Part shown: piece by piece, positions 2,178 to 48,373 of the stretch
How positions within the stretch are numbered: the first letter of the stretch is position 1
How the letters are laid out: each line of letters opens with the position of its first letter
DNA from: Mytilus galloprovincialis
Lineage: Eukaryota > Mollusca > Bivalvia > Mytilida > Mytilidae
Assembly: GCF_965363235.1 (NCBI RefSeq)
Contig: NC_134849.1
Span: forward strand, 16,952,863-17,016,862
Length of the DNA: 64,000 nt
Direction of reading: 5' to 3'
Translations under genes and position numbers: made by a program
The notes under the pieces: model-generated
The model's input: only the letters and a program-made list of their open reading frames with translations
Databases searched by the model: none
What the model was told of the DNA's origin: nothing

Positions 2178-2226
2178 AATCCATGTAAAACAATTGTCAG
2201 ATACTCTACGTAATAAACATAACAAA

Positions 2227-2819: not shown

Positions 2820-2945
2820 TTAGACCGTTGGTTTTCCCGTTTGATTGGTTTTACACTAGTAATTTTTAAGGCCTTTATAACTTGCTGTTCGGTGTGAGAC
2901 TATGCTTCGTGTTGAAGACCGTACCTTGACCTATAATGGTTTGTT
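2820..2945 (+). repeat. Dispersed repeat family R3
   Basis: The copy begins around TAGACCGTTGGTTTTCCCGT and runs to the stretch CCTTGACCTATAATGG. The same order of words occurs at 14270-14460, 32525-32670, 41290-41490, 41540-41660 and 50530-50685. Longer copies end in GAGAGTTGTCTCATTGGCA. The class is not determined. Confidence 0.65.
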
Positions 2946-3968: not shown

Positions 3969-3974
3969 TTTATT
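3969..3974 (-). terminator. Poly(A) signal of lectin A
   Basis: AATAAA on the minus strand lies about 100 bp past the lectin stop codon. The equivalent site is conserved in lectin B (33978-33983) and lectin C (44003-44008). Confidence 0.6.
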
Positions 3975-4073
3975 ATTTTATAGACATAACAAGATAAAAA
4001 CAAGGAGTTTGTAGAAAGTCACAATTGGAATACACGCATAGAGAAATAGGTACAAATCTGATTCTTTGTAGGT

Positions 4074-5058
4074 CTACTTGGGACACGCCATCCACGTGTA
4101 GACAACTTCGTAGGTAATCGAGCCGCCCCAAGATACAATTTTGAACATGAATCCATGTCCAGAAAGATGGTGTACTGTCGCTTTTATCCTCACATTTTTC
4201 CCCCTGTAGGTATCCAGTGAGGTCATTCCAACCACTAAAGCAGGTGTCCTGCGGAAAGGTCTACGAAATGGTATGTACATAATTCGATGTTTGTTTCGTC
4301 TACTCGAATACCCAAGCTGTGCAGTTCCTGAAATGCCTACAAACAGTAAAATGAAATACTTTAAACTTATCAAAGCAAAAAAAAAAACACATTTGAGTGA
4401 CTTCAGCCAATACAACATTAACTACCCCCAAGCTAAGACCCCCATTCCAAACCCAACTTAAGTATATTTTAAATGCAAACAAACATAATAGATAAATACT
4501 TACAACCATGGCGGCGGTAATGTCGGTGTCGGACTGAAATAAATTGAAAGAATAACATTTTAATTGCACATATTATGTTACAATATAAAGCATTAAATGA
4601 AATTGAAGGAAGGAGAATAAATAATAATGCATTGTTAAACAACCAATATACACATATATACATTTATTAATATTAACAAAATTACAATGATTAGCATCTA
4701 ACTGAGAAAATAAAATATGACAAATACGTATAGGTAAACATAAATTGAGGTTTACCGACCTTTGAAATAGTACGATAAAATGACAAATAAAACGATGGAT
4801 GTTACAAAGTGTGTCTGAGTTCAACGAAAAGTACACGTACCTTCTGTCTCCAAATCGGATCTGCAACTTGGTTTCTTCTGATTTAGGAGCCTCGACTTCG
4901 TTCTCTATATCATTGACTGAAGAGGGGGCAACATCTAGCTTCGGAGCCTCAATTTTGTTCTTTATATCATCGACTAAAGAAGGAGAGGATTTAAACTCCA
5001 CACTCCCGCCAACTGCAGAAAAAATGCACACAGTGATGAATATAAACACAAACTTCAT
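4074..5058 (-). pseudogene. H-type lectin A, disrupted by a deletion in exon 1
   Basis: Three exons can be read: 5058-4841 (signal peptide MKFVFIFITVCIFSAVGG plus acidic stalk), 4533-4504 (30 nt, basic) and 4336-4074 (H-lectin domain, ending YTWMACPK). All junctions have GT/AG sites and match lectin B. Against B, exon 1 lacks 47 bp in the coiled-coil coding part (joint near 4860). Exon 1 therefore ends in phase 2 instead of phase 1. Exons 2 and 3 are then read in the wrong frame, and a stop follows about 20 codons into the shifted frame, before the lectin fold. The promoter, TATA box, splice sites and poly(A) signal all survive, so it may still be transcribed. A truncated secreted stalk is the only product I can predict. 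An assembly or allelic variant is possible. Confidence 0.8.
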
Positions 5059-5127
5059 TGTGTCAAGCTTCTGAGCCTTTTCTATGAAAACTAGACACGT
5101 TATAATTACTATTGTTATATCGCCTCT

Positions 5128-5135
5128 CTTTTATA
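5128..5135 (-). promoter_or_regulatory. TATA box of lectin A
   Basis: TATAAAAG on the minus strand lies about 70 bp before the start codon. It is preserved at the same distance in lectin B, and in C as TATAAAAAG. Confidence 0.75.
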
Positions 5136-5170
5136 CACGTCAACCGAAAAATGTTTTCCTTCTTGTACGT

Positions 5171-5235
5171 GACTTCGACAAACTGGTAACGCATATTCTA
5201 TTTTCCTACACACGACTTCAACAAACTGGTAACGC
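5171..5235 (-). promoter_or_regulatory. Paired upstream element of lectin A
   Basis: Two near-identical 22-bp words (plus strand GACTTCGACAAACTGGTAAC and a GACTTCAAC variant) start at 5171 and 5214, 43 bp apart and just upstream of the TATA box. The pair and its 43-bp spacing recur in lectins B and C. This is the best candidate for a shared inducible control element. Confidence 0.65.
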
Positions 5236-6015
5236 AAGTTCTATTGACCAATGTATAAAACGAGGCTCCAAGCTGAAACTGGTAGTGTGAGTTTAAAAAT
5301 TGCATTTAGAATATATTCACAGAGAACATAGAAATACACTAGAATGGACAAATAAGTAAATAAACAGTCCCGACGACTACCATTCCCCACTTAAAAAAAC
5401 CGAACACAACAGCAATATAACACAATGTACGCCTTAGCATTAACTCGTTAATTTATTAAGCAAATAACAGATTTACATTGGATAATACTTTGAGATGAGA
5501 TTTTACATATTTTCGGTTGTCTGATATTTGTTCATTGAACTTTTCCTGTAAGACATTTATAAAGATGAAAGGATTAAAAGTAAAATTCATTACAGACCAA
5601 TTTCGTAATTCAAAAGTTGTTTTCTTGTGCTGCACTTTGTAAGACTTGGGTATATGTAAGTTATATTTTTCTCCATGTTCAACATTTTTTATCCAATGTA
5701 TTAATACTAGTTTATTTGAATGTATAAATCCGGGCTAATGAAGAAGAAGAAGTCAATTTAAAAATAATAAAGCAAGTAGCATAAACATGATACATCTTTA
5801 CTCAATACATATCTATTGAGTGCACAGGTAAAAAATTCGGAGTACACACCGTGAGTTCAATTGCATTGTGGTATACTTAAAGTGACGTATCTATTTGAGA
5901 GTTAATATTTAAAAGTGATATAACCATTATAACTAATGCATGACTTTCTAATATTTTTTAAATAACTGATTTTTTTTTGTAAAGATTAAAGCAGTATACT
6001 GTTTTGAGTAATCAA

Positions 6016-12693: not shown

Positions 12694-13072
12694 CGTGTTA
12701 AAACAATGATAATTACATACAAACATACATGAAATTATATAAAACAATTCTAATTAAATACTTAGTGAAATAGTGAATCTCTTCTATATTAGTTCATGAA
12801 ATGCAATAAGGTTGGTACCAAGGAATTTTGCTTTTTAGTGCAAATGTGGTATAATCAGACAAAATATACTAGGGGAGTGTTTAGAGTCAATTCCAATAAT
12901 AACAGTTTCAAGTACTATAATTGAAGGGAAATCCTTTTATTTATAAAACACTGATATAAGTGAAGGAAAATAACATGTTTTAAAAACATTGTCCGAATGT
13001 CTTCGTCGAAATAAGCAGTTGAATTTCTTGTAGCTCCAAGTGTCTGGTTCAAATAAGTACATGCTCAGTTAT

Positions 13073-16000
13073 CTACCCTTTGGTTAAATCCTCCCATGCA
13101 ATCCAAGGTGCTTTGAATTTCCTACATTCACAACATTGCGGAGCTCTCAGTTGTAGTCTGTGTATACGTGGGAATGGTTGTGGACAGTATAGCCAAATGT
13201 TGAAGATTTTGTAGTTGCTTTGTACACACTTATATCTGTATGGGAACATCCAGGACATGCAAGGAACATTCTTACAATATTGTGGTCTGAAATGAGTAAA
13301 GTATGAATGAGAAGATGTGGTATGAGTGCCAATGAGACGACTCTCCATCCAAGTCACAATGTATGTTAATAATTATGGGTCAAGTAGTTTGTATTAATGA
13401 AAGCATTCTGTGTAAATTTGTTATTAATACATCATAACGTTGTAGAATCTGATGCATCCTGGGTAATTTTTTTTAAAGTGTACACCAAAACGTCCTGATT
13501 GGTTGAAAATGTCATAAACAAATGAATTTTAACTAATGGCGTGGTACGAACAATTACCCATGATGCATTAGATTCTGAAACGGCCAATTGGTTCAGTATT
13601 TCCTGCAACAATAATGACAATTTTTAAAACCAACATTAGATGTGTTTAAAAACTTTCAAGGGTTACAGGATACATAAAGACAACTTTTCATTTCAGAAAT
13701 GGATATTTTGAAAGCAATTACTAGTACATTTTAACTTGTGGTTGGAAAAAACGAACCAGTGCATGATTTTTAAAAGTTATACGTCTAATTCTAAATCTGT
13801 TTCCTTATTTGAAGTTTTATACCAAAGAATAAGTTAACTTACTTGCAGTCAGCATACGTTATAGCTGTAAATAGAGTATTCCACCAAGGTTTAAACACGT
13901 AACACTTTTTCCCGTAATACCAAAATGTTTTACCAATATACAACGATCTGAACTTAGACTCACACATCGATGCGTTAGCAGGTTGTCTAAAAAAATTAAA
14001 TATAAATATAAGAAGACTTGATATGAATGCCAATGAACCAATTTCTCACTATATATCAAATACATATAAATATAAAGCCCAAGGAGTTGAGAAATATATA
14101 CATCAACAAAAAGGCAACATGTTACAAATACAGTATAAATTGTTTTATTAATAATCTGAAGTCGTTTGTAGTACTGACAAATATTGAAAATACGATTAAT
14201 TAAGGGGTTCTTGTTACTCAGTCTTTACTTTTCAATTACTGTATTTGTGTACTGTTTTTTTTATATAGATTAGACCGTTGGTTTTCCCGTTTGAATGGTT
14301 TTAAATTACTAATTTTTGGGACCCTTTATAGTTTGATGTTCAGTGTGAGCCGAGGCTCCGTGTTGAAGGCCATACCTTGACCCCCTAATGGTTTACTTTT
14401 ATAAATTGTTATTTGGATGGAGAGTTGTCTCATTGGCACTCATATCACATCTTCCTATATCTATTATATAATATGTTGTTTGTTTTGTGGTCGTTTTTGT
14501 GTGTTTTTGCCCTGGTATTGTCAGTTTGATTTCGACTGATGAGTTTGACTATACTTTTGGTATCTTTCGCCTCTCTTTCATATTGTTTCTATATCTATAA
14601 TTCATATCTTCAGTAAAATATATGTAGATATAGGATGTAAGCGTGTGTCTACCTTTGAAATTAATAATTATATGAGCTTGTAATAGCAGAAATAATTATT
14701 CTGTCAGCGTCTGGTGTCCTTAATAAAACAGTCAAGAAAGAACAAAATCTCCGGCGCAGAAATCACATATGCGTTCCGTTCAATACTTTGTAACACTACA
14801 CTCAATATTAGAGGTCATATTAAGTACAGTATTGCAAAGCATGTATGGAACGGATATGAACTCTGCGCGGCCGGAGATTGGAAAGAACACACTTCCAAAA
14901 AGAAATTCAAAAGATTGTGGTCCAGATTGTGGTCCAGATTGTGGTCCAGATTGAAGCAGGAATGAGAAAATCAATTAAAAATAATGCATAATGGTTAATA
15001 TATTTTTCTTACGGTGTTGCGATCCACGGGTCTTTTGTATTTAACGAAATGAGGCTTTGTGCAGCGTCTTTGTCACTCTTTAGCTGCTCATAATCTCTTG
15101 CATTCTGTTTAGAGAGTTCTTTCTCTGCTCCGTCTATTTCAGACCTACGATAGAATAAGATTTAGAGTAATTAAGCTTAATCAAAGACTTATTTTAGAAA
15201 CAGGGAGATTTGGTCCATAACCATTATCTTTATGTTGAAACTTTGATTTAATGTTACCTTATTATCGAAACATTTACATATTTCTCAGATATGTGAACCA
15301 AAATTAAAAATGAGTTGATAACATATTTCGATCAAACTGACTTCTGAGTAACTGGCAAACCACAGAATAAACATGTTAAATGTGAATTGAAAATTAGATT
15401 ATATGAGTTTCTTATACTATGTTCCTAATTTTGTCATTTTTTTTTTTAAGAGGGAGACGGATTTATATAAGTTTTTCTTATTTCCGAATCCCTGTATTTA
15501 TATAGTTTAATTATATTTCATGCACTTTTTGAAATAAAATATTGTTTAAACTAAGCTTAATCAACATTCCACCATGGAATTATTTCATGCTAGCCATAAT
15601 ACTTTATTAGTATCAGCTAACATGATTTATATAATAAGAAAAGTTATATTTACCGGGTTAGACCTTGGGTTAGACGTACAATTAATTTGGCTAGATTATT
15701 ATCAGAAAAAGATATTGGTTTGAAAATTCTTTTGAAACATGGAATGGAACAATAAGTGTCTTTTGTTTCGGTAACATGTCTTTTGAAAATCTAAAATAAA
15801 AATTAAATGGAACCAAATATGAACCACGCGAAAGATAGTGCATTATATTTTTAAAACGTAAAAAAAGTAAATTGTTGGAAATTCATTTGTTGGTGTAAAG
15901 TAAAATAACATAAATACCAAACTCGGAGGACCGAGGAAAATTCAAATCGGAAAGTATCTAATCAAATGGCAAAATCAAAAGCTCAAAAGCACCAAACGAA

Positions 16001-17346
16001 TGGACAACAACTGTCATATTCCTTACTTGGTACATGCAGTTTCTTATTAAGAAAACAATGTAGAAAAGTTAAAAATAATAAAATTATGAAATTTTGGCCA
16101 TCTGCGTGATGCGGGATTCCCTGAATAACTTAAATTTAGATTTATCGCAAATCATTTATAAATTAGTTTCTTGAAGTGAAACTATAAGGAAACTTTACAG
16201 AAACAAGGATACACTAACTAAAAACGCCATATGCTAAGACAAATTAACTCATCATAGATACCAGGATTAAATTTTGTATTTTCATATTATTATAAGACAA
16301 ACTATCATAGGTAAAGCTAACTCACTCAGGGTATTTATCTTCATCATCGGAATTAAATCCTGCTAGAATATCATCATTATACTGGGCATCACATTGGTCT
16401 TCTTCTTGGCAAAAGCCATATGCAAAGACACAGAAGAATACCTACAAAACAGAAGGCATTGATAATACAAATCAATTATGTGTATTTTAATATGCATCTA
16501 TCAAATACAGTTTATTTAGTTTGCACCTTTTTTCAGAGCACACATGTGAAATCATCAAAGATAAAATACATGTAAACAAACTTAATGCCTGTACCAAGTC
16601 AGGAATGTGACAGTTCCTGTCTATTCGTTTTTGATGTTTTTTTGTCATTTGATTTTGCCATGTGATTAGGGACTTGCCGATTTGAGTTTTCTCTGAGTTC
16701 AGTGTTTTTGTGATTTTACTTTTTTTATACATGTAAACAAACTTGACTTTAGTTTTATGAAATAACAATGCAATGTTCCAATGGATGTCGATGGACGATA
16801 TTTAGCTTTAAGTCTTATGAATGTAAGTGTCGTATTGCTTTTTGCACAGAGGTTGTTTATTAATGATCAAAACTTGCTTTATTTTTTCCATAAACAATGA
16901 ATATGAATAAGGTACCATATTTGAATTAGATCAAATATTGCAAATGGAACTTGACAAATGAGCATTAGTTTTTAAATGTCCATAGCTTATAATTTAAAGA
17001 TGATGGCATAAATGCATAGATAGATAATCAAAATATATAAATGATGAAAAAAATAATGGACAAATACAAAATCAAAGATATAAAAAAATAGAATAAGAAA
17101 ATAATTACATAATCAAATAAACGAGAGGTCAATACATACTGAAAAAAAAATGATAATAAAAATGAATAAATGAAATACTTGTGGAAAACCATTTTGAACG
17201 TGAGAATAAGAGGCTCTAGTATATATAATTAACCAATGTTCAAATATCATATTTAAAAATCAGTTATAACTTTAAAATAATTTCTATAGGATAATATATG
17301 AATTAAAATAGAAATAGATACGTACCAATGTTCTTAATATTTTCAT
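13073..17346 (-). CDS. Secreted cysteine-rich peptide precursor, five exons
   Basis: Exons are 17346-17326, 16441-16326, 15144-15013, 13986-13843 and 13286-13073 (627 nt, 208 residues). All have GT/AG introns, of phases 0, 2, 2 and 2. The start MKILRTL continues in exon 2 as a hydrophobic signal peptide (VFFCVFAYGFC). Exons 2 and 3 code for an acidic, helix-prone pro-region. Exon 4 has three Cys and many aromatic residues. Exon 5 has seven Cys in the pattern C-x4-C-x10-C-x13-C-x16-CC-x-C and is strongly basic. The gene at 25931-29188 has the same signal exon, phases and Cys pattern but lacks exon 4, a symmetric phase-2 exon. I do not recognise the family. The acidic pro-region plus basic Cys-rich end is typical of antimicrobial peptide precursors, which is an inference only. 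Confidence 0.82.
13443..13577. mobile_element. Inverted-repeat element in intron 4 of the minus-strand Cys-rich gene
   Basis: The arms (AGAATCTGATGCATCCTGGG on the left; the inverse of CCCATGATGCATTAGATTCT on the right) bound about 80 bp. A related sequence lies at 46540-46676 in the long intron of lectin C. It is a small non-autonomous element of unknown class. Confidence 0.65.
14270..14460 (+). repeat. Dispersed repeat family R3, long copy
   Basis: It runs from TTAGACCGTTGGTTTTCCCG to the tail GAGAGTTGTCTCATTGGCAC and CACATCTTCCTATATC, within intron 3 of the minus-strand Cys-rich gene and on the opposite strand to it. Confidence 0.7.
14745..14880. mobile_element. 136-bp palindromic element with 9-bp target duplication
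   Basis: GAAAGAACA stands on both sides (14736-14744 and 14881-14889). The inside is nearly one long hairpin: ATCTCCGGC at the left end and GGCCGGAGAT at the right end, with arms of roughly 65 bp and scattered mismatches. A 9-bp duplication would suit a Mutator-like source, but that is inference. It lies in intron 3 of the Cys-rich gene. Confidence 0.75.
14910..14950 (+). repeat. 12-bp tandem repeat, three units
   Basis: GATTGTGGTCCA is repeated three times and starts a fourth unit, just right of the palindromic element. It gives a false peptide repeat in some frames and has no coding meaning. Confidence 0.8.
16580..16725 (-). repeat. Dispersed repeat family R4, inverted copy
   Basis: It contains CTGTACCAAGTCAGGAATGT and TTTGATTTTGCCATGTGATT, the reverse of the R4 words seen at 12225. 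It lies in intron 1 of the minus-strand Cys-rich gene. Confidence 0.55.
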
Positions 17347-17406: not shown

Positions 17407-17414
17407 TATTTATA
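17407..17414 (-). promoter_or_regulatory. TATA box of the minus-strand Cys-rich gene
   Basis: TATAAATA on the minus strand lies about 60 bp before the ATG, at a normal distance for a short 5' UTR. Confidence 0.7.
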
Positions 17415-25860: not shown

Positions 25861-25868
25861 TATAAAGA
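25861..25868 (+). promoter_or_regulatory. TATA box of the plus-strand Cys-rich gene
   Basis: TATAAAGA lies 70 bp before the ATG, with the 5' UTR from about 25890. Confidence 0.7.
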
Positions 25869-25930: not shown

Positions 25931-28900
25931 ATGGCTGTTCTAAGAATTTTGGTAAGTAATTGGATATTTTCTAAACTTTAAAATATGACTAACCATGTAC
26001 TTAGATTTAGAAATTAATAAATAGATATATACTCAATTAACTGAATATTTTCTCAAATACTTATGATTTTATCATTATTTAAAAAATAAGTTGTTTTATA
26101 ATTTTTCTCTGGTGACCTGATCGGAATAAAATTTGGGAATTTTAGAATTGAGTTTCTGAAATTTTTCGACACTTGCTTTTGTTCAAATCAAACGTTTTAG
26201 TACAGCCAAATAACTATTTTGAAATTGGAACTGTTTTCGTGTGAAATTATTTATTCAATAGTAAATTTAAAAAAGGCATCGTTCCTTCTTTAGCCGTTAC
26301 TAATGCTCGACAATCTTTAACTGTTAAATTGAAATAATATATTAATTGATTGTTTTTTTTAACGTTTAATGAAACGAAAATATGCATATCAATGAAGAAC
26401 AATTTTGATTAAATCACATATTATATATTAAGGCATTGTGTTTACAAAAAAATATGATTCGTAGGCGGCAAGAATGACTATAAAATGATAATAAATGATT
26501 CAAAGCAAAATGTTTCCACTGTAGCATTACATTGAATTTTTCTTAACTACAAGGAGATTACATCGAGCCACTATGTCTCCTATTAATTCTAAATGTAGCC
26601 CTGCATTATACATACTGGAATTAAGAATACCAAATTCTTTAAAAGTTTTTTTTTATTATTATTTTTATGTATAATGGATATTGGTCCTCATTGCTCTTCT
26701 TCGTACTTTATTTGGCCTTTTAAACTTTTTTTTATTCTTGCGTCACTGATGAGTCTTTTGTAGACGAAACGGTCGTCTTGCGTAAATACAAAATTTAATT
26801 CTGGTATCGATGATAAGTTTATTTAGAATAATAATTATTGTTTCTTACCGTTCAACCACTTATTGGTTCTTCGGCCGGTCATTGAAATTAAGTATTTTTA
26901 TTATAGGGGATTGTGATGTGTTTTATTGCTGTTGTCAACTGCCAGATTTGTGCATCAGATGCAAAAACTGAAGATCCATTTCAAGGAAAATTAGAAGATG
27001 AAAAGGGCTATCCAAAGTAAGTTGAAAAACATTATAACGATATAAAACAACAAGAATCTTTCTGAAGTTGATATTCGTTTGGTGTTTGTTTTAATTCTAT
27101 TTCTTTTGGGAGGGAAGGGTAATATTGTTACAATTAAATAAATTTACTGCATGAATTTAAGTAGCCACGAAAATGCAAGTTTTCCTCAATACATGAAATT
27201 TGATACCCAAGAAAAAATGAATCCACAGTATTTATAATTCCTTGGGCTAGGCTTATGAAAAAGGTTGACATATTGCAGAAACACATATTCATTGTTGCAA
27301 ATGTCGTTTCTTATTTGCGTCTTTCAGAAGCTTTTTTTTTATTGAAGCAAACTTCTTGTATTAAAAAAATATATGATATCGTAGCCATACAGGACCACAA
27401 ATACATTAATTAAACGCCATTTTGTTGTAATACTGGACGTTACAAACATTGAATTTGTCTTGCTTTTGAATTCACAAACACGCACAAAGGCAAATGCTAA
27501 ATTGATACATCAAAGTTCAACAGGAGCTTTTTTTAATGAAAACCCACTTGCTTTTTACACTTTTCAGAGCTGAAATAGAAGGTGCATATGAGAAGTTAGA
27601 CCGGGACACAAAAGCACTGATCGATAAAGATGCCGGTGAAATGGCAACTTTGAGTAAATACGACTTCCTGCCTGTGTAAGTACTGACTTATACTCTTTTC
27701 AATCTTTAAAAATCTATATGTTCCTCTTTCATTTATCACCAGTTTTCTCATTCATCCTTTCTGTCTCGGCTAATGAAGTTTCGATTTCATGAATAATTGT
27801 CAAGTATATTCTTACCAAAATGAGACAAAATCAAAGCAATTTACCTGCTAAGCAACGGCGTAGACAGGAACAGGGGAGGATCCAGTATATTTGAAAGTGA
27901 GCTTCATTGCATAAAGCTGTATATAAACTGTTTCTCTAAATCCGATAAACTATCGCTAATCAGGTCAAAGACTTATACACTTTGACTGTGTCGTAGTGTA
28001 TGTAAATGAAACAATCAAAAATAAGATAGTTAACAATGAAGATCAAAGCTATCAAAGAAAGAATGATATAAAAAAAGAATATTTTAATTAGAACAATTAT
28101 ATGTGTGACCTTTGCTTGTCTTAGTGTTTCGTTGAATCTCTTAATTTCATTCGTATAATGTCAGCTCATAGTTTATCAATGTTATATTATACATTACATA
28201 CTTTGCCCTCACAAATTTGTCACAATCTATCAAAGAGCATAACATTTAAAAAAAATCAGCCTATCGTTCATCCATGCTATGTTTTTCATTACAAAAAGTA
28301 AAAAATTGATTTCATGCAATGTTATTTTTCAGTTCTCATTTGTCGTCATCCCTTTGCCCTCACACATTTGTCACAGTCTATCCAAGAGGATGGCATTTCC
28401 TAAGCAGTAGTCTGGGAAAGTGTTGGATTCTCAATAGATGGTGGAATACCCCACTCTCATACGCTGTATGCCCGTAAGTACAATTATGGTAGAAAATTTA
28501 TCAAAATACTCCGCATTCATACGCTGTTTGCGCACAAGTACAAATATGATAGAAATTTTATTAAAATACTCCGCCGTCATATGCTGTTTACTCGTAAGTA
28601 CAAACATAATAAAAATGTATTTAAGTACTCTGAGTTCATACGCTGTTTGTGCATAAGTACACATATGACGGATAGTTTATTAAAAGGTTTTTATGCAGGA
28701 GAAGACAACCGGTGTATATCTACACACACAACTGGTGTCAGTCGTTTTACCCCGCGTTTGAATTACTTTTAATTCTAATTACAGGCCGTATTTACAAGAA
28801 ATAAAAACCTCAAAATATATTGGTTGAACTGCGTAATTGAATAATGCAATAAATTATTGTTTCGATTTGTTGATAGAATAAATTTGTACAGATAAAAGAT

Positions 28901-29188
28901 TTATAACTAAGAAGTTTAAGCTGTAGGAAATGAACCTTTTAACATTTGTTTTTGTATTTTCTTATATATATCTGCATCAATTCCCTACGGAAATAAAACG
29001 TAATTAACATTATTCATATTTGTAGAACAAAATCATGCCAAGGCCTACCATGTCCTGCTAAAAACTACCGTTGTACACCATCGAACTACAAGGGCTACGT
29101 AGCATGGACCTATTGTCCAGGAAAAGGATTCAGTCGCAGATGGTTTAAATTGCCTCAGTGTTGTGAATGTCAAAGATTTAAATGTTGA
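25931..29188 (+). CDS. Secreted cysteine-rich basic peptide precursor, four exons
   Basis: Coding exons are 25931-25951, 26907-27016, 27568-27675 and 29026-29188 (402 nt, 133 residues). Intron phases are 0, 2 and 2, all GT/AG. MAVLRIL plus GIVMCFIAVVNC form the signal peptide. Exons 2 and 3 code for an acidic pro-region rich in Glu, Asp and Lys. Exon 4 codes for the mature part of about 52 residues with eight Cys in the pattern C-x4-C-x6-C-x13-C-x14-CC-x-C-x4-C and a net charge near +9; the last Cys is the final residue. It matches 13073-17346 in signal exon, phases and the SNYK and CCEC motifs. I know no named family with this pattern. An antimicrobial role is likely by analogy but unproven. 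A poly(A) signal follows at 29286. Confidence 0.88.
26670..26820 (+). repeat. Dispersed repeat family R5, in intron 1
   Basis: CTGATGAGTCTTTTGTAGAC and AAATTTAATTCTGGTATCG mark a plus-strand copy inside intron 1 of the Cys-rich gene. Confidence 0.65.
28441..28690 (+). repeat. 60-bp minisatellite in intron 3, four units
   Basis: CATACGCTGT or CATATGCTGT recurs at 28459, 28518, 28578 and 28637, a period of 59-60 bp. Each unit also carries GTAAGTACA or a variant, which looks like a splice donor. It lies in intron 3 of the plus-strand Cys-rich gene. Confidence 0.85.
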
Positions 29189-29285: not shown

Positions 29286-29291
29286 AATAAA
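29286..29291 (+). terminator. Poly(A) signal of the plus-strand Cys-rich gene
   Basis: AATAAA lies about 100 bp after the stop codon. Confidence 0.6.
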
Positions 29292-30175: not shown

Positions 30176-31908
30176 ATGAAAGCAGATGTCAAGTGTAAGT
30201 CAATGGACCAAAAAAAAAAATATTACACAAAACATTCTAGTTATAAAAAAAGGTTTCAACATGTGCGATCAAAGCACAGCATGGTATTTCCTAAACAAAA
30301 TCATGATAATTACGTCTCAAACGACACTGATAGATATACAAATTATGTGGAAAAAAAGAACGGGAGATACTAAGGTACATTTTAAACTTATCAGCCGACG
30401 CGACACTGACAACGCCGTTGGAAAAAATCATAACAACATCAAAACTAATTACAATGGAATGTAATGCATGAATTTACACACTATAAAGTAAACAAATAAT
30501 ACTTGGAAAAAGAAATACTAATACTGAGCAATATGCAATTTATAAATTGAGGACTGTATTACCGTAATTTGAAGAAATATGGAATAAATGAGGACCATTC
30601 TAACAGCAAAAAATTAATTTTCTTTTTCACGGAAAAAAGACTCTATTTATTATTTTCAACATGTTGGTGAGCTTTTTCTAAATTGGTTATCACTAATCCA
30701 AAACTTGATAATAACGTGACATTAAATGATTAAAACGACTTAGTCTGTCAACCTGTTGATAAAAATAGTGAAAACTGATTATGTCATTACGGTTATTTTT
30801 ATCAAATTGTATTGAGCATTATTGTCATACTTGACTTTTATACTAATGTATGCAATGTATATGTTTGCATTTTATTTATGATTTGATTTTTTTATAGAAG
30901 AAAAATAAAAACTTTGTCGGATGGATAAATTGACCAAGTAGTGAAATATTTCTTTTCGTCAATAAACTAATCATAGATACCAGGATTAAATATTGTATTT
31001 ACGCAAGACGCGCGTTCCGTCTACAAAAGACTCATCAGTGACGCTCTAATCCAAAAAAGTTGATAAGGCCTAAAAAGTACGAAGTTGAAGAGTTTTGAGG
31101 ACAAAAATTCCTAATGTTTTGACAAGTACGGCTATGGTAATATATTCATGGGGTAGAAAAGCATTAATATTCCAAAAATTCACTGTTAATTGGTAAACAT
31201 GACGTAAGAATCATGCTCACCATGTCAGTCTAGTTAACAAAGTATGGTTCATCTTTACATCAAATCATTATGTTCCCGTCGGGGTGTGCATAAAACATTG
31301 GCAACGAAAAATACAAATCAAGCCATTTACACCCGTGCTAATGCGAGTGTTACCAATTTAACTATAAAACTATTCATGGATTAATTTAGGTTCTAAAGAA
31401 TACAACTGTTCAATTTCAGACTAAAACTATTCATGGATTAATTTCGGTTCGAAAGGATACAACTGTTCAATTTCAGATTCAGTTGCAACTATCCACCATA
31501 ATCACTGAACAGGATTATAACTTTTAAATTTTGAAAATATCTGGTTAAATCAAAGAATACACGAACTAATCAGAAAACTCCCAGTCGAAAAAGAACAGAC
31601 GAAAACACACGAAGACATACAACGGACAGTCACACACTACACAAACAGATCATAAACACCTTTCAAACAACTAAGTATAACCTATGAACTGCGGAAAAGT
31701 CAACAGTTTCGGCATATTTCATTCCAAATACTGAGTAATTGTCTTGTCAGCTGTACATTAGTTGATTTGAAACCATGATCTGACAAATTTTCGAAAATTA
31801 AATCTACAAGGGTGCAATAATAATCTTAATACTGATCAGCTCTATTAGGTGAAAATCGACATCCATGTAAAACAATTTTTGGGTACTCTACGTAATAAAC
31901 ATAACAAA

Positions 31909-32135
31909 CTGATTGGTTCATATCATTTAAGTAAACCCAATTCTGATTGGTTAATATCATATAAGTAAACCCAATTCTGATTAGTTAATATCACGTAAGT
32001 AAACCCAATTCTGATTGGTTCATATCATGTAGGTATACCCAATTCTGATTGGTTCATATGTAAGTAATCCCAATTCTGATTGGTTAATATCATGTAAGTA
32101 TGCCCAAGTCTGAATGGTTCATATCATGTAAGTAA
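31909..32135 (+). repeat. 34-bp tandem array, seven units
   Basis: CTGATTGGTT or variants begin at 31909, 31943, 31977, 32011, 32045, 32076 and 32110. This is the counterpart of 2227-2430 with one more unit. Confidence 0.85.
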
Positions 32136-32524
32136 ACCATTTAGAACCCAACCCAGAAGATAATTCACCGTCGTCTTCTTCCCCACCTGCAAAGCGAGAA
32201 TGTTGTATCTCCATATCTGCCATTTGCATGTAGTTACTAGTGGACTGTCAATCCAAAAGGAACCACTCCGCAGCAGATAGAGCTTCTGTACAAAGGACTG
32301 TCATTCCAAAAAAGGTTCACTCCGCGGTTGATTGTGGTTTTGTACAGACTTGTCTTTCTATGTTGTGATGTTATACTACTGTTTCAGAAAAGAGAGAAGG
32401 TTTTCTATAATTAATACGTTTACTCCCGCTGAATTTATTTGCACCTGTCCTAAGTCAGGAATTTGATGTTCAGTGGTTGTCGTTTGTTTATGTATTTCTC
32501 GTTTCTCTTTTTTTTTTTCTTGAT

Positions 32525-32670
32525 TTATTAGACCGTTGGTTTTCCCGTTTGGTTGGTTTTCCCGAGTGATTGGTTTTACACTAGTAATTATTTAGGCCTT
32601 TATAACTTGCTGTTCGGTGTGAGCCTATAATCCGTGTTGAAGACCGTACCTTGACCTATAATGGTTTGTT
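32525..32670 (+). repeat. Dispersed repeat family R3
   Basis: Counterpart of 2820-2945 inside duplication copy 2, with a small extra CCCGAGTGATTGGTTTT stretch. Confidence 0.65.
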
Positions 32671-33044
32671 TTACAATATGCATTTATATTTAACGTATAT
32701 ATGACTACTAGTATATAAGTTTGAATAAATTGTGTCCACTTCCTTTTGCATATTTAGGCAAATAAAATATGTTTTAACTAAAAAATAACGTTTGCAGATA
32801 GAAAATTCGATAGTTCTTCAACCTAAAGTTAACCTATGACGTTTTAGTTCTTCTAAATTGGTTGAGTTTATTTACCTCCCCCTTTTCCACTTTATAATTT
32901 TGTATCAGTGCACAGTGCATCTAATAGATTACACATGCATATTTATCATATTTATGTGGAATGAATTTCAATGAGGCACTTGTGCGGTGCAAATAATTAT
33001 AGTTCTTGACTTATCAAGAAAAGTAAATTACCAATCAATAGAAA

Positions 33045-33195
33045 AACACGCATTTGAAGTTAAAAAGTAAAATCACAAACATTCTGAACTCAGAGGAAAA
33101 GCCAATCGGAATGTCCATAATCACATGGCAAAATCAAACGACAAAACACATCGAAAACGAATGGACAAGAACTGTCAAATTCCTTAAAATTAAAT
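33045..33195 (+). repeat. Dispersed repeat family R4, insertion specific to copy 2
   Basis: AAAAAGTAAAATCACAAACA and TCCATAATCACATGGC match 12225-12340. Duplication copy 1 has no such sequence at the corresponding place near 3200. Confidence 0.6.
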
Positions 33196-34082
33196 ATCTG
33201 AAACTTTGTTTAATGAGCATATCCTTCCAAACTGGTAAAAAATAAAAGAAATAACAAACACAGTTAAATATATCTCAATCAGGAATCTTAAATTTTAAAG
33301 ATTTTAAAAGGCATTGTGATAAATAGAAACATAAGGAACTACATGCCATAAAGTGATATTAAAAAGTAGCCAAATTCTTATACTTTGGATTCATTATAAT
33401 TATTCGTGGGGGACCAGTTTTCGTGGATTTCTATGGTACAGGTGAACAACGAAATAAAATGTTCAACGAATAACAAATTTGTTTCGACTTATATACAGAA
33501 TTTAGCAAAATCACTAGATTAAATACCCACGAATATGCAAGTTTTCCTGCGTCAACGAAAATTGGTACCAACGAAAGTAACTGAATCCACAGTATGGTCA
33601 GTTTCATTTCTTGATTTACGAACACAAAATTCAAGAAAAGTACGGCGTTAATCAGGTCCGAAGCGATAAAATGATAATTAGCTGATAAACTCTGCATACT
33701 GTTGTGCACACCTCATTTCATGTTTACTGCTCAAAGACCACTTAGCTGCGAATTGATTTTACTTAGCGGCGATTTGATTTTGCAATTTTCAAATTTACTT
33801 GATGTTTTGAAATCAAGAAAGATTAAAGTCTTCTATATTTCAACGATTTATATTTACGTTTTTTTAGCGAAATTCGCAACATACAAACAACTTGTGTCAT
33901 GAGTTTGTTTGTAATATTCAATATGTTGTCTTCCGATAGTAATTGATTTACAAAATTTAAAAGTATTTGAGTAAAACTTTATTATTTAAAAGACATAACA
34001 AGATAAAAACAAGGAGTTTGTAGAATGTCACAATTGGAATACACGCATAGAGAAATAGGTACAAATCTGATTCTTTGTAGGT

Positions 34083-35110
34083 CTACTTGGGACACGCCAT
34101 CCACGTGTAGACAACTTCGTAGGTAATCGAGCCGCCCCAAGATACAATTTTGAACATGAATCCATGTCCAGAAAGATGGTGTACTGTCGCTTTTATCCTC
34201 ACATTTTTCCCCCTGTAGGTATCCAGTGAGGTCATTCCAACCACTAAAGCAGGTGTCCTGCGGAAAGGTCTACGAAATGGTATGTACATAATTCGATGTT
34301 TGTTTCGTCTACTTGAATACCCAAGCTGTGCAGTTCCTGAAATGCCTACAAACAGTAAAATGAAATACTTTAAACTTATCAAAGCAAAAAACCACATTTG
34401 AGTGACTTCAGCCAATACAACAGTAACTACCCCCAAGCTAAGACCCCCATCTCAAACCCACCTTAAGTATATTTTAAATGCAAACAAACATAATAGATAA
34501 ATACTTACAACCATGGCGGCGGTAATGTCGGTGTCGGACTGAAATAAATTGAAAGAATAACATTTTAATTGCACATATTATGTTACAATATAAAGCATTA
34601 AATGAAATTGAAGGAAGGAGAATAAATAATAATGCATTGTTAAACAACCAATATACACATATATACATTTATTAATATTAACAAAATTACAATGATTAGC
34701 ACCTAACTGAGAAAATAAAATATGACAAATACGTATAGGTAAACATAAATTGAGGTTTACCGACCTTTGAAATAGTACGATAAAATGACAAATAAAACGA
34801 TGGATGTTAAAAAGTTTGTCTGAGTTCAACGAAAAGTACACGTACCTTCTGTTTCCAAATCGGATACTTCTGATTTCAGTGCCTGAAACTCAGTCTCCAT
34901 ATGATCTTTTGACTGCAACTTGGTTTCTTCTGATTTTGGAGCCTCGACCTCGTTCTCCATATCATTGACTGAAGAGGGGGCAACATCTGGCTTCGGAGCC
35001 TCGATCTTGTTCTTTATATCATCGACTAAAGAAGGAGAGGATTCAAACTCCACACTCCCGCCAACTGCAGAAAAAATGCACACAGTGATGAATATAAACA
35101 CAAACTTCAT
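34083..35110 (-). CDS. Secreted H-type lectin B (intact)
   Basis: Exons are 35110-34846, 34538-34509 and 34345-34083 (558 nt, 185 residues), both introns of phase 1 with GT/AG ends. Residues 1 to about 17 form a signal peptide. Residues 20-65 are an acidic, Pro/Ser-containing stalk. About 66-89 (METEFQALKSEVSDLETE) is a heptad-like coiled coil. Residues 90-98 are RHRHYRRHG from the 30-nt exon. From about 118 to 185 runs an H-type lectin domain, with the family features PALVVGM, LDT, NVRI, GF, W168 and a final YTWMAC. Cys99, whose codon is split by intron 2, and Cys183 could form the chain-closing disulfide known from snail H-lectins. Such lectins form trimers that bind GalNAc-type sugars and act in innate defence. 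Specificity here is unknown. Confidence 0.88.
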
Positions 35111-35179
35111 TGTGTCAAGCTTCTGAGGCTTTTCTATGAAAACTAGACGCGTTATAATTACGATTGTTATATCGCCTCT

Positions 35180-35187
35180 CTTTTATA
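35180..35187 (-). promoter_or_regulatory. TATA box of lectin B
   Basis: TATAAAAG on the minus strand, 70 bp before the ATG, as in lectin A. Confidence 0.75.
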
Positions 35188-35222
35188 CACGTCAACCGAA
35201 AAATGTTTTCCTTCTTGTACGT

Positions 35223-35287
35223 GACTTCGACAAACTGGTAACGCATATTCTATTTTCCTACACGTGACTTCAACAAAGTGGTAACGC
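35223..35287 (-). promoter_or_regulatory. Paired upstream element of lectin B
   Basis: The 22-bp words starting at 35223 and 35266 (43 bp apart) match the pair of lectin A. Both are preceded here by ACGTGA. Confidence 0.65.
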
Positions 35288-35964
35288 AAGTTCTATTGAC
35301 CAATGTATGAAACGAGACTTCAAGCTTAAACTGGTAGTGTGAGTTTATACATTGCATATACAATATATTCACAGAGAACATAGAAATACACTAGAATGGA
35401 CAAATAAGTAAATAAACAGTCCCGACGACTACCATTCCCCACAAAAAAAAAACGAACACAACAGCAATATATCACAATGTACGCCTTAGCATTAACTCGT
35501 TAATTTATTAAGCAAATAACAGATTGACATTGTATAATACTTTGAGATGAAATTTACATATTTTTGGTTGTCCCATATTTGTTCATTGAACTTTCCCTGT
35601 AAGACATTTATAAAGATGAAAGGATTAAAAGTAAAATTCATTACAGACCAATTTCGTAATTCAAAAGTTGTTTTCTTGTGCTCCACTTTGTAAGACTTGG
35701 GTATATGTTAGTTATATTTTTTCTCCATTTTCAACATTTTTTAACAAATGTATTAATACTAGTTTATTTGTATAAATCCGGGCTAATGAAGAAGAAGAAG
35801 TCAATTTAAAACTATAACGCAAGTAGCATAAACATGATACATAAATATATATCTTTTGAGCGCACAGGTAAAACATTTTGAGTACACAATGTGAGTACAA
35901 ACTCATTGTGTTATACTTAAAGTGAAGTATCTATTTGAGAGTTAATATTTAAAAGTGATATAAC

Positions 35965-43560: not shown

Positions 43561-44107
43561 CGTAATTTTTGGTCCAAACGACCTTGTTTAGACTGCTGTA
43601 CCTAGATCAGTTTCACCCCGACCTAATGACTGTTTGGATATATGTGTAAACTGAGTTCTACTCTACTTGCAGATGACAGATAAATACCTATATCAGCATC
43701 GCTTGGTCATTGGGGTCAAGAAATAAGACGAAAAATAGTCAAAATGACGCTTTTTTGCACGTGATGACCAACTTTGTGGCAAATTCCCGTCCATCCATCC
43801 ACGCCTCCTCACCTAAAGGAATCAATATGCAGCAGGGTAAAGCTCATGTGCATATAATTTGCATATTTTTGCAAATAAACGAAGATTAAACATTTTCTGA
43901 AAACAATTTAACATGGTACTAGTAAGTGTTAATAGTGTTCTATTTTTTTTATTTACCGATAGTTATTGATTAACAAAGATTTAGGATATTTTCGTTTGAA
44001 GCTTTATTATTCTAAAGAAATAACAAGAACGAAACAGAGGGTTTGTAGAAAGTTACAATTGGAAAACACTCATAGAGGAATAGGTACAACTATGATTATG
44101 TGAACAT

Positions 44108-47100
44108 CTACTTGGGACAAGCCATCCAAGTGTAAACAACATTGTAGGTAATCGAGCCGCCCCAGGTTTTAATATGCAAAATGAATCCATGGTTGGAAAG
44201 ATGGAGTACATTCGTAGTTATCCTCACATTCTTTCTCCTGTAGGTATCCAGTGAGGTCATTCCAACCACTAAAGCTGGTGTCCTGCGGAAAGGTCTACGA
44301 AATCGTATGTACATAACTCGTTGTTTGTTTCGTCTACTCGAATACCCAAGCTGTGCAGTTCCAGATACGCCTACAAGCAGTAAAATGAATAAAGTTTATC
44401 AGAGTGAAAAACTAGTGTACATTGGTAATAAAATCAACGACTTTTGATTATTTTCAGTCTATTCTACATTTACTAATTTAATATCTACACAGCTACTTTT
44501 GCATAGGTACTATTTTTGTACTGAAATTCTATAGTACTGGAAATTAACCTTTAATATTTAGTATTATTTCTTTACTTTAGAATTATTGTAATATTCAGGT
44601 ACTTTTATTTTCCAGTACTTGATTTGTTATAATACCACAAAAAATTATCACAGTATTCCATGGTGGAACATCATAACTTTAAGATATTTGAAATAGACAA
44701 ACTTTTAAATTGCTGAAAATCTGTAGTACTTAAATTTCAAGTACAAATCAGATACTGTAAAATACAGGTACCTAAATATTACAATAATTCTTTAACAGTA
44801 ACAAAATAGTGCTGAACATCAAAAGTAGATTTCCAGTACTACAGATTTTTGGTACAGAAGTAGTACCTATCCAAAAGTAGCTGTGTAGTGTAGTTATCTT
44901 TCTTACGGCTGATTATGACCAGATATATATCAGTGATCTCAAACATAGATTACACAACATTCATTCTAATACTTTTAGTGACGGGTTATATTTACTGGTG
45001 GTCAGCGTAGGTAAATTATGAAATATTTTTTTATGTCACCGAGAAGAATAAAATGTGTTAAAATCTATGAGATTGTTTTGATAATGTCCAATGACATAAC
45101 ATATTATATACCCTAATTGTTAGAAGTTTTTGCTGAGATAATTGGCTCATTTAGAAATCAGTCAACAATTTTTTTTAATTTATACAATAAGTTCACCCCG
45201 CAGTACCGTTAGCATCTTAACTGTTATCAGACTGAAAGGAATGATAACAAACATTTAAGGACTTTTAAAACCTTGAATCTCCACTAGAATGCTTTTGAAT
45301 AATGAGATATGGACTTCACTGAACTAGTTTATATATATTTATTTAGGGTCCAGCTGAAGGACGCCTCCGGGTGCGGGAAATTCTCGCTGCATTGAAGACC
45401 TGTTGGTTGCCTCCTGCTGTTGTCTGTTCTATGGTCGGGTTGTTGTCTCTTTGACACATTCCCCATTTCCATTCTCAATTTTATTGGAATATAAGTATTC
45501 AGAATTATCGTCATGTGAGACGAAAAAAATCATGTCAGACGATGAGTATCGTCATGTAATCGATATGTGAGACGATGATTATCGTCATGTAATAGATATG
45601 TGAGACGATTATTATCGTCATGTAATCGATATGTGAAACGATTATAATCGTCATGTAATCGATATGTGAGACGAAATTAGTCGTCATGTGAGACGAAATT
45701 AGTCGTCATGTGAGACGAAAGTACTAGGCTCTATATGGTTTTTCAGGATTAGATGTAAAAAATAACACATTATCAACATAACTGAAGACACATGATGCAT
45801 ATGCAATATGTTTTTAAGTGTAATATTGCAAAACATAGATCTTTTAAAAGATGTACAAATACACATCCGGTGTGCTGTACTTTGTCAATCAAAATTAAAT
45901 GTATTCTTTGGGAATTGTATATTCATGATAAATCTATTTTTTATTAAAAAAAACCTGTTTTGAACCATAAACGTCCAATATGTTATACTAGATTAACAGA
46001 CTCAAAAATCGCACTTCAAGTCGGTGTTATAATCCATACTGAGTGGGAAAACTTCAACAACACGCTTAGAAGTGAAAGGCGTTCCCGTAACTTTCCTGTT
46101 TAGAAATGAATTATTATCCAATTCACCATCCTAAAATTACCGTTTCTTGTGATAAATATTTTGGAGAATCGAAAAATTGATGTTTAATATACAGAAAAAG
46201 ACCATCCCGAATAAGATGGTACGTGCATTAAAAAAATTAAGTATACTTTAAACCGCTTATGTATTATAAATGTTTGTAATTAAGTCGTTATTATATATGA
46301 GGTGAAAATCTGTTGATATGTTTATGATTTTGACAACGGGTTATAACAAAAGAGATAAAAAATACACCTAAGGGATATTCATACTCGACAATCTAGACAA
46401 AATGACAATGCCAAGCAAAAAAACAGTTTTTGCCGAAAAAACTCACACTAGGCCTGAAAACACAACATAAAAAACTAAAATATTGAGCGACATGTAGGTG
46501 CTTCTACATCGGTTTAAACAAACAAGCATTACCCACTCAAAAGTGTACACCAGAACATCTTGATTGGTTAAATGTGTCCGAAACAAATGGAAATTTAACC
46601 AATGACGTGACGTTATTTTCATTTTTGGATACGAACAATGAAATAACCCATGATGCTTAAGATTCTGAAACGGCCAATTCTTTAACTTCTTTTTTTGTTT
46701 TCTATTATCATTTATGATCCCGTATATTTGATCTTCGGCGATGAATGGACCGGCTTATTCTTAATCCGAAAACAGAAGAAATTATTGATACAAATACGGA
46801 CTGAAGTAAAGTTCTTTAAATACAAACAGACTTGATGATAAATAAACACTTACAACCATGGCGACGGTAATAATGACGACGATGATGATGACGACGGTGA
46901 CGTCGGACTGAAATAAAATTCAAATTTAAATTTTGTGCACTTATTATGTAACTATATTTAAGCATTCAATTAGATTAAAAGAAGGAAAACAAATATTATT
47001 GTTATATTTTATCACAAACACAAATACATATTTATATACATATATACACGCATAAATATACATTGTCCAAAATAATCATGATAACATTTAACTGAAAAAA

Positions 47101-48197
47101 TATGATAAAACTACGTAAACATAAATTGGAATTTACCGATCTTTGAAAAAAAGTACGTTAAAATGACAAATACTACCATATTTGTTTAAAAAGGGTCTTC
47201 GTTCAATAAAAAATCAACTTACCTTCTGTCATTTCTCTCTCTAACATAATTATTTATTTAAAAAAATGATAGATAATTCTTTATAACTTCTTTTTTTGTT
47301 TTCTGTAATCATTTATCAGGACCCGTGTATTTGTTCTTCGGCGATAAATTGACCAGATGATTCTTAATCCGAAAACAAGAAATTATTGATACAAATACTG
47401 ACTAAAGTATAGTTCTTTAAATGCAAACAGACTTGATGATAAATAAACACTTACGACCATTGCGACGGTGATAATGACGACGTCGGACTGAAAAAAGAAA
47501 TAAAATTTAATTTTGGTGCACATATTATGTAACTATATTTAAGAATTCAATTAGATTGAAATAAGTAAAACAAATACTATTGTATTATTTTATCACACAT
47601 ACAAGTGTATATTTATATACACACACACACACACGCATCAATATACTTATATACACGCATCAATATACATAGTACAAAATAATCATGATAACATTTAACT
47701 GAAAATATGATAAAACTACGAAAACATACATTGGAATTTACCGATCTTTGAAAAAGTACAACAATATATGTTTAAAAAAGGGTCTTCGTTCAATAAAAAA
47801 TCAACTTACCTTCTTTCATTTCTGTCTCCAACATAGATACTTCTGATTTCAGAGCCTGAAACTCATTCTCCGTTTCACCTTTTGACTCAAAGTTGGCACC
47901 ATCTGGGTTCAGAGCCTCGACATCGTCCTCCATATCATCGTCTGAAGAGGGGGTTACATCTGGCTTCGGAGCCTCGACATCGTCCTCCATGTCATCGACT
48001 GATTCAGAAGAGGGGGTAATATCTGGCTTCGGAGCATCGACCTCGTTCTCATCATCGACTGAAGAGGGGGCTACATCTGGCATCGGAGCCTCGACCTCGT
48101 TTTCATCATCGTCTGAAGAGGGAGAGGATTCAAACTTTAACGTGCTGCCATATGCAGTCACAATGCAAACAGTTATGAATATAAACACGAGCCTCAT
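44108..48197 (-). CDS. Secreted H-type lectin C with expanded acidic stalk and two basic micro-exons
   Basis: Exons are 48197-47810, 47487-47455 (33 nt), 46907-46854 (54 nt) and 44370-44108. All introns are phase 1 with GT/AG ends. With both micro-exons the product is 245 residues. A signal peptide (MRLVFIFITVCIVTAYG) is followed by four acidic repeats of the type DDENEVEAPxPDxxPSS and a coiled coil (ENEFQALKSEVSMLETEM). The micro-exons read VRRRHYHRRNG and RRHRRHHHRRHYYRRHG. The lectin domain ends YTWMACPK, as in A and B. Both micro-exons are multiples of three, so each may be skipped or used alternately. The last intron (44371-46853) is swollen by a fold-back element, a minisatellite and repeats. 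Sugar specificity is unknown. Confidence 0.83.
44485..44888. mobile_element. 404-bp fold-back element in the last intron of lectin C
   Basis: It starts CTACACAGCTACTTTTGCAT and ends with the inverse of CTACACAGCTACTTTTGGAT. Similarity between the two arms continues inwards for about 190 bp, with a loop near 44660-44710. No clear target duplication was found. Confidence 0.75.
45340..45482 (+). repeat. Abundant dispersed mollusc repeat
   Basis: GTCCAGCTGAAGGACGCCTC, TGCATTGAAGACCTGTTGG and TTTGACACATTCCCCATTTC are words of a repeat I know to be very common in bivalves. It lies in the last intron of lectin C. Confidence 0.65.
45508..45720. repeat. 33-bp minisatellite with TCGTC/GACGA inverted words
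   Basis: TCGTCATGT starts at 45508, 45549, 45582, 45615, 45648, 45681 and 45703. Four steps are 33 bp and the last is 22. Each unit runs TCGTCATGTAATCGATATGT then GAGACGA, so it can fold back on itself. It lies in the last intron of lectin C. Confidence 0.85.
46540..46676. repeat. Copy related to the 13443-13577 element
   Basis: GTGTACACCAGAACATCTTG, ATTGGTTAAATG and CCCATGATGCTTAAGATTCT follow the same order as in intron 4 of the Cys-rich gene. Only one outer arm is well kept. Confidence 0.55.
47220..47262 (-). other. Duplicated tail of lectin C exon 1
   Basis: On the minus strand ATGTTAGAGAGAGAAATGAC and AGAAG, followed by GTAAGT, repeat the end of exon 1 (47850-47810). With the flanking intron and a micro-exon this makes a tandem duplication of about 600 bp. 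It explains why C has two micro-exons. No splice acceptor is seen, so it is probably unused. Confidence 0.6.
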
Positions 48198-48264
48198 TCT
48201 GTCAGACTTGTCAGTCTCACTTATGAAAACTAGACGCGTTATACATACTTTTATTATATCGCCT

Positions 48265-48273
48265 CTTTTTATA
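48265..48273 (-). promoter_or_regulatory. TATA box of lectin C
   Basis: TATAAAAAG on the minus strand, about 70 bp before the ATG. Confidence 0.7.
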
Positions 48274-48308
48274 CACGTCCACCGGAAAATGTTTTTCTTC
48301 TTGCACGT

Positions 48309-48373
48309 GACTTCGACTAACTTGTAACGCATATTTTAATTTCTTACACGTGACTCTGATAAACTGGTAACTC
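48309..48373 (-). promoter_or_regulatory. Paired upstream element of lectin C
   Basis: Diverged versions of the 22-bp word start at 48309 and 48352, again 43 bp apart. Both are preceded by CACGTGA or CACGTGAC. Confidence 0.6.

Follow-up and report, generated by a model that had tools for sequence, protein, structure and literature searches.

The window analysed here is a stretch of 64,000 nucleotides from the mussel Mytilus galloprovincialis (bases 16,952,863-17,016,862 of contig C12, NC_134849.1; searched genome, 1.385 Gb), and it carries two divergently oriented genes, A and B, whose family is best read, from its sequences, as Spaetzle-like cystine-knot proteins. Gene A (25931-29188, + strand) and gene B (17346-13073, - strand) each form an open spliced frame of five exons, coding for 180 and 208 amino acids, and their ATG codons lie 8.6 kb apart. 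The four introns of each gene are all GT-AG, with phases 0,2,2,2 in both. An earlier note on this DNA had placed the two genes correctly, in opposite orientation, and had recognised their seven-codon first exon, MAVLRIL in A and MKILRTL in B, which ends in phase 0 in both gene models; it missed one intron, having given the phases as 0,2,2. The parts of both genes (in window positions) and a second pair, A' and B' (in contig positions), are as follows.

25861..25866, +, gene A TATA box (TATAAA), starting 70 bases 5' of the ATG; shared in alignment by A, A', B and B'
25931..25951, +, gene A exon 1, MAVLRIL, opening residues of the signal peptide, phase 0; coding exon identical in A'
26907..27016, +, gene A exon 2, remainder of the signal peptide and acidic pro-region, phase 2; gene model and A' comparison
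27568..27675, +, gene A exon 3, charged part of the pro-region, containing LDRDT, phase 2; gene model and A' comparison
28201..28266, +, partial copy of the first part of exon 4, in gene A intron 3; tblastn with the exon-4 peptide, 55% identity, E 1e-4
28333..28473, +, gene A exon 4, N-terminal half of the knot domain with C1, C2 and C3, phase 2; gene model
29026..29188, +, gene A exon 5, C-terminal half of the knot domain, with C4 through CC-x-C plus the last Cys, stop; gene model
29286..29291, +, possible gene A poly(A) signal AATAAA, 3' of the stop; direct reading
17409..17414, -, gene B TATA box, starting 68 bases 5' of the ATG
17326..17346, -, gene B exon 1, MKILRTL, phase 0; gene model
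16326..16441, -, gene B exon 2, end of the signal peptide and acidic pro-region, phase 2; gene model
15013..15144, -, gene B exon 3, pro-region, phase 2; gene model
13843..13986, -, gene B exon 4, N-terminal half of the knot domain, phase 2; gene model
13073..13286, -, gene B exon 5, remaining half of the knot domain plus the C-terminal tail, stop; gene model
12936..12941, -, possible gene B poly(A) signal AATAAA, 3' of the stop; direct reading
C12:16899475-16894963, -, gene B', intact five-exon frame
C12:16903914-16907334, +, gene A', intact five-exon frame

Words downstream of the TATAAA element align, as does the element itself, among A, A', B and B'. A search of the coding strand with two NF-kB-like patterns returned 0 matches in the 1,500, 1,440 and 1,500 bases 5' of A, A' and B, respectively. 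Intron 1 of gene A contains a dispersed repeat of ~150 bases (window about 26678-26823), which accounts for 52 of the 57 matches of one genome search, at 74-90% identity and on many contigs.

The two genes are paralogues, homologous along their length, with 65 of 201 aligned columns identical (32%) and an E-value of 6e-24 in a two-sequence BLASTP comparison. They are not a family of two, as in the earlier note: the second B/A pair lies 71-75 kb upstream on contig C12, in the same orientation, and further relatives occur on other contigs. A differs from A' at 13 of 180 residues and B from B' at 12 of 208. For A against A', nonsynonymous divergence (dN) is 0.039 and synonymous divergence (dS) 0.194, with every splice site kept, which argues that the gene pair is not a product of chance. 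Over exons 4-5, dN is 0.026 and dS 0.196, with five residue changes in 100. For B against B', dN is 0.030 and dS 0.102, and the domain itself carries only seven nucleotide changes (dN 0.016, dS 0.035), too few to weigh. Judged by these substitution patterns, A and B are real, constrained genes, and the domain of A/A' is under purifying selection.

Both gene models predict the same precursor layout, namely a signal peptide (judged by eye), an acidic pro-region (net charge -6 in A and -13 in B) and a basic C-terminal Cys domain of ~100 residues (+12 in A and +13 in B). The secreted, Cys-rich, multi-member precursor of the earlier description, with its acidic and basic parts, is retained, and the spacing reported for it, C-x4-C-x6/10-C-x13-C-x14/16-CC-x-C, is exact in exon 5, where SNYK and CCEC are also present. 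The domain, however, begins one exon earlier, in exon 4, which adds C-x19/21-C-x15/18-C upstream of that pattern and brings the number of domain cysteines from seven to 11 (A) and 10 (B).

Relatives were sought with exon 5 by searches that scored the best candidates only, so that all locus counts are lower bounds. Such relatives occur on contig C8 (31828k), in two clusters on contig C7 (29667k, 29676k, 29683k, 29706k, 29720k and 29731k; 34126k, 34159k and 34175k) and on contig C6 (83062k, 83071k, 83075k, 83079k and 83086k). Counting the four C12 genes, at least 19 loci are connected in this way, either directly or through intermediate matches, the match to A or B ranging from E 2.5e-7 down to ~0.3 for the weakest C6 copies, which in turn match a C6 neighbour at E 0.0125. 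A group of at least eight loci on contig C10 is linked to other members, sequence by sequence, only at E 0.8 or worse, and five loci are weaker still (61712k and 61725k on contig C10, 89322k on C1, 31247k on C6 and 31978k on C7). By these matches, the relatives outside contig C12 lie on five contigs and are mostly clustered. The C7 29683k copy (L020 / L082, C7:29683745-29683885) has an in-frame stop and has lost one cysteine of the CC-x-C, and is probably a pseudogene. A reverse-transcriptase-like fragment was seen by eye ~1.2 kb upstream of exon 5 in L014, L015 and L020 (contig C7, 29.67-29.68 Mb); it is perhaps a long interspersed nuclear element duplicated together with the gene.

Fourteen members from contigs C12, C8, C7, C6, C1 and C10 were aligned over exons 4 and 5. 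Left outside this set were close copies (A', B', C6 83071k, C7 34159k and six other C10 copies), loci at which exon 4 was not located (C7 29667k, 29676k and 29720k; C6 83075k and 31247k), the C7 29683k copy, which is broken, and L069/L070, which are divergent. Exon 4 was not found within 1.5 kb at six loci. Weak matches at C7 1952k, C12 11658k, C4 56940k, C7 88744k, C10 61672k and C10 52389k were kept out of the family counts, and four others, L044 (contig C9), L045 (C1), L058 (C13) and L086 (C14), were judged from their sequence not to belong to the family. In all 14 aligned members, exon 5 is preceded by an exon that closes shortly past cysteine C3, in phase 2. For ten rows the search for exon 4 had itself imposed this phase on both exon ends, which makes the agreement support rather than a blind test; in the two C10 rows the phase was read free of that requirement. 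In a C6 relative, candidates were seen for a signal/acidic exon and for a pro-region exon that shares the LDRDT motif of gene A exon 3. A search of 4.7 kb for the corresponding exons of one C7 relative gave no candidates.

The alignment contains seven invariant Cys columns and an eighth present in 13 of the 14 members, with 9-12 cysteines per domain. Cysteines C2 and C6 are both present in 14/14, and 13 residues separate C5 from C6 in every one. The C4 column is not fixed, the sole candidate in the C10 rows sitting a few residues later. Eleven members end in CC-x-C and the remaining three in x-C-x-C. The interval from C1 to C3 measures 37 residues in A and 38 in B; it is 36 in the Drosophila and Aedes Spaetzles, and 44 and 46 in the two C10 rows.

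A profile built from the 14 mussel domains, none from insects, was searched against 177,635 PDB sequences (E<=10). All seven matches are cystine-knot proteins, four Spaetzle chains followed by three sclerostins. Drosophila Spaetzle C-106 was found as two sequences (E 0.0027 and 0.0034), as was AAEL013433-PA (E 0.0059 and 0.0061), identified as Aedes Spz1C in PMC9427763; the sclerostins follow at E 0.084-1.6. The Spaetzle alignments run from the first through the last knot Cys, whereas those with sclerostin, when full-domain profiles are used, cover the second half only (about positions 57-98). With the C10, C1 and L055 rows removed, the resulting ten-member profile still places Spaetzle first (E 0.055-0.13). 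To test whether the cysteine pattern alone accounts for these matches, the Cys columns were fixed and all other non-gappy alignment columns were permuted 300 times. None of the 300 shuffles reached the Spaetzle scores (20.7 bits for Drosophila and 19.2 for Aedes), nor did any when the LPQCCEC block was frozen as well, and an earlier version of the test gave 0/200. Because no Cys-fixed shuffle reaches the Spaetzle score, the relation of the family profile to Spaetzle extends beyond the cysteine pattern. For comparison, BDNF (10.8 bits) was reached by one of 300 Cys-fixed shuffles and by nine with LPQCCEC also fixed, and a mussel neurotrophin (3.2 bits) did not rise above the shuffles (61/300 and 105/300). 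The PDB search and shuffles had the same outcome before and after two junction residues were added to the C10 L065 row; the Pfam scans of the 14 full domains and the 14.5% hhalign value given below used that row without them. In those scans the Pfam Spaetzle model (PF16077) was matched at E<=10 by three of the 14 full domains, best at 1.2e-4 for a C10 member; a scan of 13 exon-5 peptides gave four matches to it, including gene A at E 0.007. Other weak Pfam matches, one of the 14 domains each, were taken as chance: CPL1-like (0.012), DUF2572 (0.045), BAP (0.081), Transposase_23 (0.09) and DUF4085 (0.23). Gene A alone found nothing in the PDB at E<=10, an NCBIfam scan of A and B gave no match, and a six-frame scan of the whole genome with PF16077 gave 0 matches over the cut-off, the one match below it being a neurotrophin.

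Several results weigh against a Spaetzle affinity. No domain scanned reaches the PF16077 gathering cut-off of 27 bits (best, 23.1); gene A scores 11.6-17.4 bits depending on the stretch used, the whole gene giving 11.6 (E 0.45), and gene B alone has no Pfam match. Alignment of the family with a two-sequence Spaetzle profile by hhalign gave a probability of 14.5% (P 0.0019), falling to 4.9% without the C10, C1 and L055 rows, and the C10 branch, the source of the best Pfam Spaetzle match, is itself weakly joined to the family. A profile of A and B only scores 8.7 and 3.6 bits with the Spaetzles against 14.3 with the sclerostin fragment, and the Spaetzle case therefore rests on the wider family. 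The mussel domains hold 9-12 cysteines against seven in Drosophila and eight in Aedes Spaetzle, the C2 and C6 positions hold no Cys in Spaetzle, and the charge of +12/+13 (A/B) compares with -1 and +6 in the Drosophila and Aedes proteins. The pro-regions of A and B contain single lysines but no KR, RR, KK or RxxR (furin-type) site. An AlphaFold2 model restricted to exon 5 (gene A, the B sequence being added as second row) reached a mean per-residue score (pLDDT) of 59.3 and a predicted template-modelling score (pTM) of 0.27, with four strands; at this low confidence it was of no use for a fold search.

Part of this evidence suits a different placement, in which the proteins are DAN/sclerostin-type C-terminal cystine-knot antagonists or growth-factor modulators that resemble Spaetzle only through a shared superfamily. 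The universal C2 and C6 would correspond to the finger disulfide of those proteins, and the 13 residues between C5 and C6 are the same as in the sclerostin fragment. With exon 5 alone as the profile, sclerostin is the sole type of match in the PDB (3/3, best E 0.054), and Pfam DAN is found on two of the 13 exon-5 peptides at up to 8.5e-4, better than the 0.007 of the best exon-5 Spaetzle match. Pfam Sclerostin gives a weak match (0.061) to L069, a divergent relative on contig C10, and the sclerostin fragment scores 15.4 bits with the full family profile, above all shuffles in both tests (0/300). Over the full domain, however, sclerostin ranks below Spaetzle and aligns in its second half only, DAN is absent among the Pfam families matched by the 14 full domains, and the CxGxC motif of such knots is not found, A and B having C3-x4-C4. 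We regard this placement as unlikely.

Similarly unlikely is the proposal closest to the processed defence peptide of the earlier note, namely that the cystine knot is the scaffold of a cationic antimicrobial effector. Net charge is +10 or more in ten of the 14 domains, and aromatic residues are abundant; the genes belong to a multigene family arranged in clusters, like those of mussel antimicrobial peptides; and the acidic pro-region could neutralise the basic domain. Against these stand the size of the domain, ~100 residues and akin to proteins of growth-factor fold, and the results of the family searches: neither Pfam nor NCBIfam places A or B in an antimicrobial family, and the sole such name among the 14 domains is PF06639 (BAP), found on one C10 member at E 0.081 and 13.9 bits against a cut-off of 25. 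The purifying selection on the A/A' domain also differs from CRP-I mature peptides, reported to be under positive selection (PMC10138031). Given its strong positive charge and the clustered copies, the very basic domain may act on microbes directly, a role that purifying selection on A/A' and domain size disfavour. The defence-peptide claim is weakened further by the predicted mature unit, a knot domain of ~90-115 residues, and by a pro-region lacking dibasic or RxxR sites; a small defensin-like peptide was rejected as the leading interpretation, since the domain is spread over two exons and its matches are to cystine-knot families. A clotting or structural protein of the coagulogen type, with the knot in common, is highly improbable: coagulogen is a Spaetzle-like cystine-knot protein of invertebrate blood cells, but no match to it came up in the Pfam or PDB searches.

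A neurotrophin assignment was rejected, no NGF Pfam match being found for A, B or the 14 domains. The neurotrophins (PF00243) belong to the same superfamily as the mussel knot family, and the genome also carries a neurotrophin gene. This gene (L046, C10:68061632-68061925, -) matches NGF in Pfam at E 4.4e-23 and BDNF at 1.4e-16, has its whole knot in a single open frame, and is preceded by a long basic stretch ending in RSKR.

On balance, A and B are best read as secreted Spaetzle-like cytokines that carry a pro-domain and a cystine knot, with an additional cysteine pair where sclerostin-type knots have their finger disulfide. The parts of this statement differ in strength. That the family consists of secreted cystine-knot proteins is very probable, and that its nearest kin, though a distant one, is Spaetzle, the activating ligand of the Toll immune receptor in insects, is likely. 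Whether its products act as a cytokine or receptor ligand is evenly poised, and a Toll receptor as their partner is put forward tentatively, at somewhat less than an even chance. In such a protein the knot disulfides would be C1-C5, C3-C7 and C4-C8; C2-C6 would staple the fingers as in sclerostin-type knots; and the extra Cys of CC-x-C would link two chains, as it does in Spaetzle. By analogy with Spaetzle, the acidic pro-region (net -6/-13) may mask the basic knot (net +12/+13) and hold the protein inactive until a trypsin-like protease cleaves at an exon 3 lysine and exposes the knot. Spaetzle is described in PMC9427763 as processed by trypsin-like SPE-type enzymes, its knot staying bound to the unstructured pro-domain after the cut between them. 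Two joined mussel knots might then bind a leucine-rich-repeat or Toll-type receptor, the dimeric cytokine signalling in immunity or development.

The likeness to Spaetzle (PF16077; PDB 4bv4, 3e07 and 7b1b) comprises the secreted precursor, pro-region and C-terminal knot, the alignment from first to last Cys, the C1-C3 spacing, the (L/I)P-x-C-C-x-C ending and an intron inside the knot. A characteristic intron-exon structure within the knot is reported for insect Spz, Spz2, Spz3 and Spz5 (PMC8296651). The mussel proteins differ from Spaetzle in their 9-12 cysteines, with the extra C2/C6 pair and extra final Cys, and in being more basic, below the Pfam cut-off and without an evident cleavage motif. 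With sclerostin and DAN knots (PF05463, PF03045) they share the C2/C6 finger cysteines, the x13 between C5 and C6 and a C-x-C ending, but the PDB profile match is confined to the second half and the CxGxC motif is lacking.

Comparison with mussel peptide families yields likeness of a general kind, CRP-I and myticin also being secreted, Cys-rich and multigene. CRP-I, however, is described as having a six-Cys knottin array in its last exon, C(X3-6)C(X1-7)CC(X3-4)C(x3-5)C, unlike A and B, together with a dibasic site (PMC10138031). For the myticins, which are mussel peptides (PMC7356231), the Pfam model finds other loci in this genome, on contigs C1 and C10 (17 matches, each over the cut-off, some with internal stops). 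The earlier view that the family fits no named mussel group thus holds for those that could be tested through Pfam, NCBIfam and the CRP-I array, mytilin, defensin, macin and mytimycin not having been compared one by one. 'Unrecognised' stands in that sense only, since profile methods lead to cystine-knot growth-factor-like proteins, Spaetzle first.

A gene of another bivalve, the clam Paphia undulata, has been reported as a Spaetzle homologue (Yu et al. 2015, PubMed 26477575, as cited in PMC7773633 and PMC6915886). According to PMC7773633 (2020), it was the only Spaetzle described outside arthropods. In the literature searched, of which the sources were available in part, we found no published description of this mussel family, though mollusc genomes may carry automatic 'protein spaetzle' annotations in databases. 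PMC7773633 cites evidence that Toll receptors of molluscs bind microbial patterns directly; whether they use a protein ligand too is the question that the mussel family addresses. It is conceivable, if rather doubtful, that this multi-cluster ligand family, combining a Spaetzle frame with a sclerostin-type finger staple, supplies the missing endogenous ligands of molluscan Toll receptors. If so, ligand-driven Toll signalling would not be confined to arthropods. The mussel genes offer specific candidates for such ligands of the Toll receptors in the same animal. The presence in one domain of the Spaetzle CC-x-C together with sclerostin-like finger cysteines also bears on how cystine-knot cytokines diverged.

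Elsewhere in the window, positions 2-5924 and 30468-35964 form a direct segmental duplication, present in pieces that are 86-94% identical and flanking B and A. Both copies carry an H-type lectin exon (Pfam H_lectin, 9.2e-14), and a third match to the lectin part occurs at 43956-44389 (~85%). An open frame at 47790-48332 (-) encodes a secreted-looking acidic repeat protein with no Pfam match at E<=0.1; judged by eye, it is similar to the N-terminal exon found in the lectin genes (4573-5058 and 34826-35110).

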